64,000 nt of DNA, taken from Desulfobacterales bacterium (GTDB lineage Bacteria; Desulfobacterota; UBA8473). The notes under the pieces are model-generated. The model saw nothing but the letters and a program-made list of their open reading frames with translations. It did not search any database and was not told the origin of the DNA. The stretch is taken from positions 53,122-117,121 of the forward strand of contig JACQWO010000051.1 in NCBI GenBank assembly GCA_016209225.1, given 5' to 3'. Within the stretch, counting starts at the first letter, position 1; every line of letters begins with the position of its first letter. A program made the translations under genes and the position numbers. Below are positions 31,029 through 63,973 of this stretch, in pieces.

Positions 31029-31421
31029 TTATCCAATTTTGTCCCCAAACTGTTCTAACAGGTTTTTCATCAAGGTATAATATCCCTTTATCTTACTGTA
31101 AATAAGATGGGCTACTTCCTCTTTATGCGTATGAGAAGTATCGTTTCTCCTATCTGTCATTTCCATGCATCTAACAGTATCTCCCTCAGTTAAAAATCCT
31201 GATGAAAAGATCTCTTTGAAGCAGGCCTTGGGGGAATTTGAGATGATACCTTCCTTTTCTTTGAGATATTCTTTCAGGAATTTCCATAGTGCTTCAAAAG
31301 TATATTCAAACCGCTGTATAGCGGCATCCCTTACAATAATTGAAAATGGCTCTCTCAGGATTTCTTCCAGTGTCATTAATGATTTTAAGGCATCACTATA
31401 TCTTAGTTTCAATCTTTCCAT
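31029..31421 (-). CDS. HepT/HI0074-like nucleotidyltransferase partner
   Basis: 130 residues, mostly helical, with the tail motif RRNDTSHTHKEEVA near residue 90-103 that corresponds to the R-x4-6-H region of HepT-type proteins. It overlaps the MNT gene by 13 bases. In known pairs the MNT protein modifies or neutralises the HepT-type toxin; here the pair could be a toxin-antitoxin unit or a nucleotidyltransferase with its substrate-binding subunit. It sits as an outsider inside the glycan locus. Confidence 0.8.
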   Translation of the reverse strand: MERLKLRYSDALKSLMTLEEILREPFSIIVRDAAIQRFEYTFEALWKFLKEYLKEKEGIISNSPKACFKEIFSSGFLTEGDTVRCMEMTDRRNDTSHTHKEEVAHLIYSKIKGYYTLMKNLLEQFGDKIG

Positions 31422-31720
31422 ATCGTTACATTTTTTAGAGCTTCTTGTTTAAATTCCTTTGAAACCTCCGTAAAATTTACTATTTCAACTTTGTAGGGAA
31501 TATTTAAATCTTCTATTTTTTCTTTAAGAAGAGTAATTTTTTCTTCCTCAAATTCTCCATAAGGTATAATGCCAATATCTACATCAGATGAGATGTAATT
31601 CTCCCCTCTTGCCCGAGAACCAAAGAGAACTATCTTTACCCTGTCATATTTAAAAAAGTCTATTACCATCTTTTTTAGTTTCAAGATATATTTGTTTTCT
31701 GACACTTCCTTTGTTCTCAC
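31409..31720 (-). CDS. MNT-domain nucleotidyltransferase
   Basis: The minimal nucleotidyltransferase motif IVLFGSRARGENYISSDVDI (G-S-x10-D-x-D) is intact. The ORF track start (31834) lies inside a MITE and is not real. I choose GTG 31720 (103 aa), which puts 33 residues before the GSRARG motif as in HI0073-like proteins; before the MITE landed this GTG overlapped the wzz-like stop as GTGA. GTG 31705 and ATG 31669 are alternatives. Partner of the HepT-like gene. Confidence 0.75.
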   Translation of the reverse strand: MRTKEVSENKYILKLKKMVIDFFKYDRVKIVLFGSRARGENYISSDVDIGIIPYGEFEEEKITLLKEKIEDLNIPYKVEIVNFTEVSKEFKQEALKNVTIWKD

Positions 31721-31731
31721 TGGGCAATTTT

Positions 31732-31884
31732 GATGGCTTCGTAAAAAGTCCATCTGCGGCGTTGCGCTGCATCCTTCGTCGTTGCAGCGTACCCCTAAGT
31801 ACGCTTCACTCCTCAGGATTTGCGCGCCTTGCATCTGGAGCTTTTTACCTTGCCATCCTAATTTTGACTTTTTACGAGACCATC
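31732..31884. mobile_element. MITE, 153 bp, with inverted ends and 6-bp target duplication
   Basis: Ends read GATGGCTTCGTAAAAAGTC (left) and, reversed from the right, GATGGTCTCGTAAAAAGTC. AATTTT flanks it on both sides (31726-31731 and 31885-31890). It carries no gene. Excision in silico restores a wzz-like end KIAQ-stop in GTGA overlap with the MNT start. Confidence 0.85.
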
Positions 31885-33366
31885 AATTTTATAGGATAAA
31901 ATTTTTCTTATACGGTATAGGGAAGAAGAAATAGGCGGAGTGATTACAATTGCCTTTACCTGGTCCGTAATCTTCTCTAAACTCTCCTTGTGAATATCCA
32001 ATTCTTTTGTGAACGTGGTGCCTATTTTGACTACAGGGAAAGTAATATCTCCCCACTCCACTAGATCAAAGATAAGAGGGGACATTATGCCAGATGGAGC
32101 ATCGACCAGTATATAATCATATCCGGGAAAATTTTCTGAATCTAGTAATTGATCTCTTTCAGATGCCTCTTTTATATCAAAGGTGGAAGAATATTTGGCA
32201 GTCAATTTTTGGGATATCTCTTTATAAATTTCCCGATTATGAGAATTGGTATTATAGTTAATAACTAAAACCTTCCCCCCTGTTTCAGACAATGCCTGTC
32301 CGATTTTACAGATTAAGACTGTTTTCTCAGGGATTTCCTCGACGCTGCTGAAGAGTATCTTTCGAGGATGAGTGCTATTGCCCGCAAAGAAACTCTCTAT
32401 ATTTTTTCTTATTATCTTATCTTGTCCTGAGATGTTCACCGCCTCAACAAGGTTTTTCTTCCCTCTCCATTTCAGGTTTAAAATACCTAAGATGGGCATA
32501 TCAATCTTATCTTCTATAACTTCCATTTCATAGATTCTTTTATCCAAAGATTCCAGAGCGAAAGCCAATAATATACCGATTGCGAGACCAATCAGTGCCC
32601 CTGTTAAAACTATTTTTCTTCTCTGCGGCCCTACAGGTACTTCAGGTATCAGGGCGCTATCCAGTACCGTGAAATTGGAATAGGTATCTTCTTCAAGCCT
32701 GGCTAAGTCATACTGCTGGACGGTGGACTGATGCAGTGTATCTAGTGCCTTGACATCAGAGAATTGCCTTTTATAATTTTCAAACATTGTTTTATAGTCA
32801 TGGGACAATGCCTCGGTCTTTTTGATCTTATCTCTTAAACTGTCCCTGTACGTTTTGAAATTTTTATCCAGATAATTCCTTAAAGCCACCGGATAATAAT
32901 TGGCTATGTCAGCTGACTGCTTGGGGTTGGTTGACTCGTATGATATGACGATCGTTCCCTCAGAATCTGCAGCTTTGATATTTCCCTTTATGGTCAGAGC
33001 AGCCTTCTCAACCGATGTTCCTTTGTCCAGATTAAAGTGTCTGACCATGTCTTCAGCCACTACCCTGCTTTTTAGTATAGTAATAAGGTTCTTGCCGGGT
33101 CCCCCAGCCGACCCGAGTCCTAAAGCAGGCATCTGAGATCCTGCAAGATTACCCAGTGCTTGCGAAAGTCCAGTAATTTGGGGGACTGAGCCACTGGGCA
33201 GTATTATAGTTGTAGATGCCCTGTAGATATTAGGAAGTTTCTTGGCATGAAATACAGCTCCAAGAGAAAAAGCCAGTACACAAATGATAATATAGATTTT
33301 TCTTCTATTAAGGATTCTCAAATATCTTAAGAGAAGGCCAAAATAATCGTCTTCATTTTTAGCCAT
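31858..33366 (-). CDS. Wzz/Wzc-like chain-length protein with degenerate tyrosine-kinase domain
   Basis: 502 residues from ATG 33366 (AGAGG seven bases upstream). Two membrane segments flank a periplasmic loop (IYIIICVLAFSLGAVF and VLTGALIGLAIGILLAFA), the Wzz layout. The C-terminal half resembles the BY-kinase/CpsD domain, but the P-loop reads SSVEEIPEKTVLIC instead of a GEGKT form, and the second Walker segment reads KVLVINYN in place of an acidic ending. ATP binding is therefore doubtful. The last eight residues (DGLVKSQN) and stop come from a MITE. It likely regulates polymer length or export. Confidence 0.85.
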   Translation of the reverse strand: MAKNEDDYFGLLLRYLRILNRRKIYIIICVLAFSLGAVFHAKKLPNIYRASTTIILPSGSVPQITGLSQALGNLAGSQMPALGLGSAGGPGKNLITILKSRVVAEDMVRHFNLDKGTSVEKAALTIKGNIKAADSEGTIVISYESTNPKQSADIANYYPVALRNYLDKNFKTYRDSLRDKIKKTEALSHDYKTMFENYKRQFSDVKALDTLHQSTVQQYDLARLEEDTYSNFTVLDSALIPEVPVGPQRRKIVLTGALIGLAIGILLAFALESLDKRIYEMEVIEDKIDMPILGILNLKWRGKKNLVEAVNISGQDKIIRKNIESFFAGNSTHPRKILFSSVEEIPEKTVLICKIGQALSETGGKVLVINYNTNSHNREIYKEISQKLTAKYSSTFDIKEASERDQLLDSENFPGYDYILVDAPSGIMSPLIFDLVEWGDITFPVVKIGTTFTKELDIHKESLEKITDQVKAIVITPPISSSLYRIRKILSYKIDGLVKSQN

Positions 33367-33400
33367 AGTCATACCTCTTTCTTGTTTTCTTCAAGACAAT

Positions 33401-50602: not shown

Positions 50603-53200
50603 ATGGATAATGAAAATAGCATTTTTAAAAATGGCTCTGTCTGGCTTAAGGCTGATTTTCACCTTCATACAAAGGCGGATAAAGAATTCAAGTATGATGG
50701 TGATGAGAATTATTTTGTAAGGGATTACGTTGAACAACTAAAAAAAGTTGACATAGGAACTGGCATAATCACAAATCACAACAAGTTTGATAAAGATGAA
50801 TTTGTTGAATTGAAGAGAAATGCCTTGAAGCATAATATTTGGCTGGTTCCAGGAGTAGAATTCTCATTAAAGGAAGGGTTTCATATATTGATAGCTTTTG
50901 AAGAGAAATGGTATCAAGGCCATGAAAGCAATATTCAAAGCTTCATATCAAAAGCTTTTTATGGAATAAGTAATTACGATTCCCCGCCATATCCGAACTC
51001 AAATTCTACATTGAAGGACACTGTTGAAGCCTTAGACAAGATTGGATACGATTACTTTATCGCCTTGGCACATCCCGATGCGGATAATGGACTTTTTAAG
51101 GTATTAACCGGGCGCACGCTTGAAGCTTTTATAAAAGAAGATTCTTTCAAAAAGATAATAGCAATTCAAAAAAGCGGAAACAAAGATAATTATGAACACA
51201 TTTGTAACTTAACAAATAGGCGAATTGCGTGTGTCGAGGGTACAGACAATGCTGAAGAGGGAATTAATTCGATTGGCAAAGGAAGGATTACTTATATAAA
51301 ATTAGGTGATTTTAATTTTGAAGCTCTGAAATATGCCCTCATTGATAATGATAACCGTATTAGACCAAAAGAAAAACCTGAAATAAGCAATGCCTTTATT
51401 AAGTCTATCTCGTTTGAAGGCGGTCTGCTTAACGGGAAAGAAATTCATTTTTCACCGGAACTTAATAATTTTATAGGCATCAGGGGAAGCGGGAAATCTT
51501 CAATTATTGAAATACTGCGCTATACACTTGGAATAACACTAGGTCGGCAAGCAAGTGACAGGGAGTATAAAAACGACCTTATAGAATATGTCCTTAAAAG
51601 CGGAGGCAAAGTCATCACTACTGTTGTAAATGAGCATAAAAAAGAATGTCGGATTGAAAAAATATACGGACAGAAAGAAGATATTTTTGAAAACGGCGCG
51701 CGAATTGACGCGCCAAATATAGATACAGTATTTAAAATCCCCGTTTACTTTGGGCAGAAAGATTTATCAAATAAACACATTGATTTTGAAGCAGACCTTG
51801 TTAAGAAACTTATTGGGAACAAACTTGAAAACATCAAATCAAAAATATCACGGAAGATTGTGGAAATTGAAGACATAATAAGCGTTTCAAAAAAATTGGA
51901 CAATCTCGATGAATTAAAAAAAGAGATAGCAGAGAATGTTAACAAAGCGACATACCAACTTAAATTATACAAAGACAAAGGCGTGGAAGACAAGCTGCGA
52001 CAACAGAGTAGATTTGATTCCGATGTAAGACGCTTTAACGAGTCATTAAATGAAGTATCAAAACTTAAAGACGAGCTTGAAGCCATTATAAACAATTTTC
52101 TGCCTTTTTTTAACCAGACAACATTTAAATCCGAAGAAAATGAAGACGTTTTTCTGGAAGCTGAAAACATATTCAAACAACTCGCAATAGAATTTAATAA
52201 ATTAAGCGATATAAAAACCGAAACAGAAAAACATGAAGCCGCGTTTAAAGAACTTTATAAAAAATTACAGGAAAAAAAGGAAAGTCTTAAAGAGGAATTC
52301 GCGAAAATAAAAAGGGAAATTGCCCTTCCTAATCTTAACCCCGATGAATTCCTTAAACTGAATCGGCAGATTGAAACCTCCAAATTGAAGCTGGTTGAAA
52401 TCGAAAAATTAGAAAAGAAGAAAATTGAATATCAAACGTCATTAAACAATAAAGTTTCAGAGCTAAATAACGTATGGCATGAAGAGTATAAAATTCTTGA
52501 AAAAGAGGTAGACAGGATAAATAAATATGAAAATTCTCTTTCAATTTCCGTTGAATATAAAGGCCGAAAAGATAATTTCGATGCAAAACTCAGGGAAATA
52601 TTTAAGGGTACGGGAATAAGGGGGGCGACTTACGATAGTATTACATCACAATATAAAGATTTTATTGAAATATACAGGGATATTGAAAATTTAAATTCCA
52701 CATTGAATATCAGCGAAAACCTGTTAGCCGAGTTTAAAAAACGATTTTACGAAAATCTTTTCAATTTATTGACATTCCGTGTTGAAGACAAATTTACTAT
52801 AAAATATAATGACAAACCTCTGAAAGACCATTCTCTCGGGCAGCGGGCTACAGCCTTGATACTATTTCTTCTTGCGCAAAAAGAGACTGATGTTTTAATT
52901 ATAGATCAGCCTGAAGATGACCTTGATAACCAGACGATTTACGAAGATGTAATTAAAGCGATTAAAGATTTAAAAGGCAGAATGCAGTTTATATTTGCCA
53001 CACATAATGCCAATATTCCGGTACTGGGTGACAGTGAAAAAATAATTACCTGTAGATATTCGGAATCAAAAATAGAGATTCATGGAGGCACAATAGACAG
53101 CCATGACACACAGAAACAGATGGTAACTATCATGGAGGGTGGGGAAGAAGCCTTTAATAGAAGAAAAAATATTTACGAATTATGGAGTCTAAAAAAATGA
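50603..53200 (+). CDS. TrlF-like PHP-domain plus SMC/ABC-type ATPase
   Basis: 865 residues. The N-terminal PHP phosphoesterase (about 15-260) keeps its metal-binding residues: ADFHLHT, IITNHNKFD, GVEFSLKEGFH, ALAHPDAD and EGTDNAEE. An ABC-type ATPase split by a long coiled coil (about 400-690) follows: Walker A GIRGSGKSS near 292, signature HSLGQR, Walker B LIIDQPEDDLDN near 765. This is the TrlF-like layout. It sits inside the type III R-M operon and its stop overlaps the next start. It probably acts as an ATP-driven nucleic-acid sensor or effector; target unknown. Confidence 0.8.
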   Translation: MDNENSIFKNGSVWLKADFHLHTKADKEFKYDGDENYFVRDYVEQLKKVDIGTGIITNHNKFDKDEFVELKRNALKHNIWLVPGVEFSLKEGFHILIAFEEKWYQGHESNIQSFISKAFYGISNYDSPPYPNSNSTLKDTVEALDKIGYDYFIALAHPDADNGLFKVLTGRTLEAFIKEDSFKKIIAIQKSGNKDNYEHICNLTNRRIACVEGTDNAEEGINSIGKGRITYIKLGDFNFEALKYALIDNDNRIRPKEKPEISNAFIKSISFEGGLLNGKEIHFSPELNNFIGIRGSGKSSIIEILRYTLGITLGRQASDREYKNDLIEYVLKSGGKVITTVVNEHKKECRIEKIYGQKEDIFENGARIDAPNIDTVFKIPVYFGQKDLSNKHIDFEADLVKKLIGNKLENIKSKISRKIVEIEDIISVSKKLDNLDELKKEIAENVNKATYQLKLYKDKGVEDKLRQQSRFDSDVRRFNESLNEVSKLKDELEAIINNFLPFFNQTTFKSEENEDVFLEAENIFKQLAIEFNKLSDIKTETEKHEAAFKELYKKLQEKKESLKEEFAKIKREIALPNLNPDEFLKLNRQIETSKLKLVEIEKLEKKKIEYQTSLNNKVSELNNVWHEEYKILEKEVDRINKYENSLSISVEYKGRKDNFDAKLREIFKGTGIRGATYDSITSQYKDFIEIYRDIENLNSTLNISENLLAEFKKRFYENLFNLLTFRVEDKFTIKYNDKPLKDHSLGQRATALILFLLAQKETDVLIIDQPEDDLDNQTIYEDVIKAIKDLKGRMQFIFATHNANIPVLGDSEKIITCRYSESKIEIHGGTIDSHDTQKQMVTIMEGGEEAFNRRKNIYELWSLKK

Positions 53201-63011: not shown

Positions 63012-63973
63012 TTCGTCCTGAAAAATAGGGTTTTTAATGATACTCCATATATGAAAGGATCAGGCCATCATCATTCTTGGAGAGGGCAACGATGGAACCA
63101 AACTCACAGTCGGGGTGACTCTTGCCCTTCTTGATGACAGCGACACCCGGTTCATGCAGAGAATAGATTCGCTTCCTGGGAGATTCACCGGTCGTTTGAT
63201 CGATGACTCTCTTCCCGAGAGAGACCAGGCGATTGAGTTCTCGTCCCGCTTCCTTGAACCCTCGGCTGTACAGGCTGTTCGCTACCCCAGCAGCCTGCTT
63301 AACTACATGACTGGTTACCTCCTCGCGAACCCTCTTGATCTGCTTAACAATCTTCTCTCGAATCCGGTGCAGAAGATCGGCGTCCGTAGGATAGGCGATG
63401 TTCTTGGGCTGGGCAGTGGTATCCACCGCTACTCGTCTGGTCTTTACCAAACCCATCTCAGACCACGCCTTGAGCAATACCGCCTCAATCTGCTTCATCC
63501 CTTCAGTTCCGATGCGGTTCCGAAACTTCACCAGAGAAGAGGCATCCAGAATCTGACCTCCCTGAAAAGAGTTGAATCCGCAAAAACACTGCCAATAAGC
63601 ATTTTCATGGAGCATCTCCACCGCCCGCTCATCAGAACAATTGTACCGGTGCTTTAGAATATGGATGCCGACCATCAGCCGAATGGGTTTCCCCTGACGG
63701 CCCAGGGGACTGTAGTAACCGGACAGAACTTCATGAATACCGTCCCAGTCAATTATCCCGGCAGCACGAAGCAATTCATGCTCCGGATTCAGAACATCCG
63801 AAAAAAGGGTCTCATACATAAGAAGTTGCCTCTCTGGAATTTGTACTTTCATATCAATAGCTTATAGGATAAATCCCAGATAAAAACAACTAAAATCCAC
63901 AACTTTCTTCAGTTTTCAAAGAACAGTATCAATGTTTACGCGGGTTTCATGCCGCATTTTTCAGGGGGAACTA
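63009..63973 (-). mobile_element. Insertion sequence (IS5-family-like), shortened but keeping both ends
   Basis: Left end TAGTTCGTCCTGAAAAATAG and, reversed from the right, TAGTTCCCCCTGAAAAATGC form an inverted pair of about 18 bases. The element is about 965 bp, while its transposase is only the N-terminal part of the usual length. It may be an internal-deletion derivative. No clear target duplication beyond a possible TA. Confidence 0.7.
63034..63852 (-). pseudogene. Transposase, truncated C-terminus
   Basis: 272 residues. GYYSPLGRQGKPIRLMVGIH and CSDERAVEMLHENAYWQCFCG are the N-terminal DNA-binding part, then RRVAVDTTAQPKNIAYPTD gives the first catalytic Asp (DTT). It stops at SYMEYH shortly after HPDCEFGS, before the second Asp and the Glu. 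Without those residues it should be inactive. Confidence 0.8.

Follow-up and report, generated by a model that had tools for sequence, protein, structure and literature searches.

The wzz–nucleotidyltransferase junction

The window, a 64,000-nucleotide stretch (positions 53122–117121 of contig 14) of a genome assembly of 3.1 Mb in 95 contigs, carries on its minus strand a wzz-like chain-length determinant gene followed by two small genes. In these, an NTP_transf_2 or Polbeta domain adjoins a PF08780 domain, the arrangement of a minimal nucleotidyltransferase/substrate-binding (HEPN-like) pair. A short element with inverted ends, referred to below as a miniature inverted-repeat transposable element (MITE), occupies the junction between wzz and the pair. 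The features are, in order of position:

31029–31421, minus strand: partner gene encoding a PF08780 protein (nucleotidyltransferase substrate-binding protein like); overlaps the 3' part of the nucleotidyltransferase gene
31409–31720, minus strand: minimal nucleotidyltransferase gene (NTP_transf_2/Polbeta), 103 aa when read from the likely GTG start
31717–31720, minus strand: GTGA, predicted former overlap (wzz stop TGA at 31719–31717, next start GTG at 31720–31718)
31721–31834, minus strand: 38-codon N-terminal extension of the listed 141-aa reading frame, probable annotation artefact
31726–31731, no strand: left copy of the 6-bp target site duplication, AATTTT
31732–31884, plus strand: MITE, 153 bp, with 5/153 substitutions relative to the 38-copy consensus
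31732–31750, plus strand: left terminal inverted repeat, GATGGCTTCGTAAAAAGTC
31858–31884, minus strand: element-encoded wzz tail DGLVKSQN with TAG stop
31858–33372, minus strand: wzz-like chain-length determinant gene (Pfam Wzz, PF02706), at present 504 aa
31866–31884, minus strand: right terminal inverted repeat, GATGGTCTCGTAAAAAGTC, consensus GATGGACTCGTAAAAAGTC
31885–31890, no strand: right copy of the duplication, AATTTT; in minus-strand orientation AAA ATT (K I), the last codons of the original wzz

The first-pass annotation had described a 153-bp element with inverted ends, bounded by AATTTT, between wzz and the nucleotidyltransferase gene, and this description is exact to the base. The inverted ends extend over 19–21 nt, with the 21-nt arms being 90% complementary, and the 12-mer TCGTAAAAAGTC has two exact matches in the window, one at each end of the element. 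Together with its flanks the element folds in silico into a long hairpin (RNA minimum free energy −54.2 kcal/mol, z = −5.6), and no Rfam family matched it above the gathering score. The sequence TTGATGGCTTCGTAA at one end encodes LMAS followed by a stop, and the opposite end encodes DGLVKSQN.

Upon removal of the element together with one AATTTT, wzz reads ...ILSYKIAQ-stop and encodes 498 aa instead of 504. Only two good relatives of wzz were found among 395 genomes of the phylum. A same-genus wzz (76% identity), which lacks the element, ends in ILSHRIT-stop and hence stops at the place predicted from the excision (LSHRIT-stop versus LSYKIAQ-stop); a more distant one ends in ILSHRISWKKT-stop. 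The TAG that terminates the present gene is a variant of this copy, found in 3 of the 38 copies, with TGG in 26. Because of this TGG the consensus element would add 23 residues to wzz, as observed at another insertion site (L003). Inside wzz, on the plus strand and antisense to the gene, lies a perfect promoter-like sequence, TTGACA-16-TATAAT (window 32750–32777, 12/12 matches).

Downstream, the open frames of nucleotidyltransferase homologues are mostly ~100–125 aa long. Those read in detail have ~27 residues ahead of the LFGS motif, as is obtained from the GTG at 31720, and the 141-aa reading frame is 38 residues too long. Within the extension, positions 31732–31834 are element DNA and the remainder is target duplication and former wzz end. 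The earlier assertion that both annotated proteins are artefacts of insertion consequently divides: the 38-residue extension is probably an annotation artefact, with the GTG intact, whereas DGLVKSQN is the real present C-terminus of wzz.

A multicopy element and an insertion sequence with the same ends

The genome itself contains 40 matches to the MITE (87–100% identity), corresponding to at least 38 distinct full-length copies. The aligned copies have their first and last bases in common (GATGGC...CCATC), and the sequence outside these bases differs from copy to copy. Perfect 6-bp direct repeats flank 24 of the 38, five further copies agree at five of six positions, and a few show an apparent 7-bp repeat. 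By comparison, mispairing the left and right flanks of different copies gave 6/6 agreement in 0.6%. The target is A/T-rich, often A....T. Thus, the element has terminal inverted repeats, a target duplication of fixed length, a size of 153 bp and many copies, and it lacks a transposase gene of its own, all of which are features of a MITE.

Matches were obtained in 18 of the 39 genomes searched. The family is shared by same-genus genomes, and several other families of the phylum hold more weakly matching relatives; the plasmid and phage records searched gave no match. Copies related to the MITE were also present on two IMG/VR contigs classed as viral (L168, L169). Additional small elements display the same inverted ends and unrelated interiors (L095, L096, L113, L115, L131), several of them with ...GTCATTCCGGCGGAAGCCGGAATCCAG...-like sequence, and elements of this kind were found also in another family of the phylum. 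It would seem that several MITE subfamilies share one terminal sequence.

Many element ends in the same genome lack a partner ~133 bp away. Many of these unpaired ends fall into two types, located at most ~135 bp from contig ends, with ~15 of each. The two types read GATGGACTCGTAAAAAGTCAGGCATCCC... and GATGAACTCGTAAAAAGTCATGTCTTTT..., start with GATGGACTCGTAAAAAGTC and GATGAACTCGTAAAAAGTC, respectively (15 ends each), and are 98–100% identical within type. For 13 of 15 first-type ends, the adjoining 6-mer has its reverse complement next to an end of the second type, with pairs such as AACTTT/AAAGTT, AAGATT/AATCTT and AATGTT/AACATT. As these outside 6-mers pair up, the two types represent the two ends (R1 and R2) of one insertion sequence (IS) with a 6-bp duplication, present in ~15 copies that were collapsed by the assembler, the interior being absent from the assembly. 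The IS and the MITE have the terminal GATGRACTCGTAAAAAGTC and the 6-bp duplication in common, but the IS is longer and carries different sequence inside its ends. Its copies break the assembly at contig ends of G000 (e.g. L080–L085, L087, L088, L091, L092, L094, L097–L130), and the near-identity of the ends suggests recent activity.

Since ends and duplication length match, this IS is the likely source of the transposase moving the MITE. One of the two contig-end types opens a reading frame, MIHIKDHRQM..., and a search of 395 genomes of the phylum, viral contigs and genome contigs returned only its own contig end. None of the DUF772 transposases of 30 genomes was bounded by the MITE/IS inverted ends. 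Likewise, no transposase was seen in three relatives, where twenty stretches of 2.8 kb next to unpaired ends contained only other small elements. A DUF772-type transposase gene does occur near the end of the window (~63487–63702, minus strand); it too is without the MITE inverted ends.

Empty sites in related genomes

The rule by which the ancestral junction had been reconstructed, i.e. removal of the element plus one repeat, was evaluated on 12 other copies, the flanks of which were joined in this way and searched for in four same-genus genomes. A contiguous empty site (~88–98% identity) was recovered in at least one of the four for 10 of the 12 copies. In nine of these ten the junction was free of gaps in at least one relative; the tenth (L040) differed by one base beside the repeat, which at this copy is probably 7 bp long. 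The rule thus holds for the MITE family, as the empty sites of other copies match the joined flanks, and these precise empty sites support the assignment of the element as a MITE with a 6-bp duplication made in the first-pass annotation.

Individual sites also differ in state between species. The site of the copy ending a gene with 23 added residues (L003) is empty in three relatives, and in the fourth (G003) the flanks are ~150 bp apart, as if filled. At a second site (L010, match at 1504) the own genome carries a full MITE, one relative has an empty site and the other three contain relics, in which 23–26 bp of the inverted ends remain between duplicated 6-mers, as if the palindrome had collapsed (relative loci L253 in G001, L251 in G002, L255 in G003 and L234 in G004). 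The two relic forms at this site suggest at least two independent losses. At a third (L017), the same insertion is present, in shortened forms, in two relatives (L259 in G003 and L256 in G002) and the site is empty in two others.

Origin and consequences of the present arrangement

In combination, these observations make it highly probable that a non-autonomous MITE landed at the wzz/nucleotidyltransferase junction, replaced the end of wzz and broke a GTGA overlap. Before the event, wzz would have ended in KIAQ-stop, its last bases overlapping the GTG from which the nucleotidyltransferase gene starts. A transposase, most likely supplied by the ~15-copy IS with the same ends, would have made a staggered cut at the 6-bp target AATTTT, and insertion of the 153-bp element at the last wzz codons would have duplicated the target. 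The insertion would thereby have given wzz eight element-encoded residues, DGLVKSQN, at its end, and pushed the genes apart.

With one AATTTT retained, the rejoined junction is predicted to read ...AAAATTGCCCAGTGAGAAC, in which the GTG at 31720 overlaps the wzz stop as GTGA. That excision restores such an overlap had been proposed at the outset, and the rejoined sequence indeed gives KIAQ-stop/GTG under a rule that holds elsewhere in the family. On the other hand, the search for the site itself was negative: none of the genomes searched showed the orthologous wzz/nucleotidyltransferase site in its empty state, because the congeners examined lack the nucleotidyltransferase gene, and the exact predicted junction had no match among the genome contigs of the GTDB species collection. 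We infer, with good support, that the overlap preceded the insertion, on the grounds of the restoration rule, of where wzz stops in a relative and of how long the N-termini of the homologues are.

However, the order in which the nucleotidyltransferase gene and the element arrived at the locus could have been different. The overlap would then never have existed, either because recombination at or near a genuine MITE brought in the nucleotidyltransferase pair or because the gene starts further downstream, e.g. at a later GTG or at the ATG before VIDFF. Such a history would accommodate two observations: the congeners searched yielded no match to the gene, and a different gene, with no nucleotidyltransferase, follows the closest wzz (76% identity). 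Still, both copies of AATTTT are perfect, implying that the flanks were contiguous at insertion unless the repeat arose by chance (a 0.6% event for each copy, going by the mispaired flanks). Moreover, the rejoined stop is at most one codon away from that of wzz in the relative and is immediately joined by a start, a coincidence that would be rare at an unrelated junction, and it is the GTG at 31720 that yields the N-terminal length of homologues. An arrangement that never included the overlap is accordingly judged unlikely.

A different question is whether the element is a neutral insertion at all, or rather a domesticated regulatory cassette (a stop codon, an mRNA hairpin or an RNase III site) selected at gene ends. 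The ready stop codons at its ends and its strong hairpin would suit such a role, about six further copies replace the last few codons of genes (tails of 0–23 residues), and no clear case of an intact gene cut mid-way was seen among the copies. However, copies are polymorphic between close species: at many sites one relative is empty, and another carries the element in full or with part of it deleted. Such a pattern is more in keeping with the purging of harmful insertions than with a conserved function, and domestication is considered improbable. A structured RNA, or an ordinary REP/BIME-type palindromic repeat, would likewise be short, palindromic, multicopy and mostly intergenic. Here, the precise target duplications, the empty sites and the ends common to an IS, together with the lack of an Rfam family, leave this explanation a negligible probability; a REP/BIME-type repeat would have neither target duplication nor transposon-like ends, and the target duplications contradict it.

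Given an insertion by the MITE, translational coupling of the two genes was probably lost. The GTG itself is unaltered, yet 137 bp and the hairpin now separate it from the wzz stop, and it is without ribosome-binding-like sequence. No Shine-Dalgarno-like sequence was recognized by eye ahead of it in either the pre- or the post-insertion arrangement, as expected for a coupled start. The statement that the overlap was broken recently is retained in a relative sense: the copy is among the least diverged of the 38 (5/153 positions off consensus), its duplication is perfect and the family is polymorphic within the genus, so that the insertion appears young within the genus, an ordering that carries no date.

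Two described families invite comparison. The Chunjie MITE of Geobacter uraniireducens has terminal inverted repeats and direct repeats, occurs in dozens of copies of 178–235 bp plus partial copies, and has one copy inserted in an operon (PMC10969869). It resembles the present MITE in being bacterial, in its inverted and direct repeats, in copy number and in the operon insertion, and, going by the description in that review, differs in size. Rickettsia palindromic elements are ~150-bp palindromes able to alter gene coding sequence (PMC10969869), and are thus similar in size, palindromic nature and effect. They lie in-frame inside genes and encode a conserved peptide, whereas copies of the present MITE lie between genes or at last codons. 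A literature search by terminal sequence gave nothing relevant, and the present family was not found.

The insertion illustrates cleanly a kind of event that is well known; its effect is neat but unexceptional, and it changes no general view of MITEs. A broader role, in which the family acts as a portable gene-end cassette, is a speculative and rather doubtful proposition. If true, insertion would favour final codons or the short space that follows a gene, each copy would bring a stop codon and a strong hairpin in the mRNA, and neighbours would repeatedly be uncoupled throughout the phylum, here a polysaccharide gene from a nucleotidyltransferase pair. For annotation, gene predictions at such sites carry element-derived ends, exemplified by 38 N-terminal residues that are probably false and by a wzz tail that is real but of foreign origin. 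With an apparently active IS sharing its ends and with presence or absence varying at the species level, the family is suited to the study of how MITEs spread and decay in uncultured bacteria.
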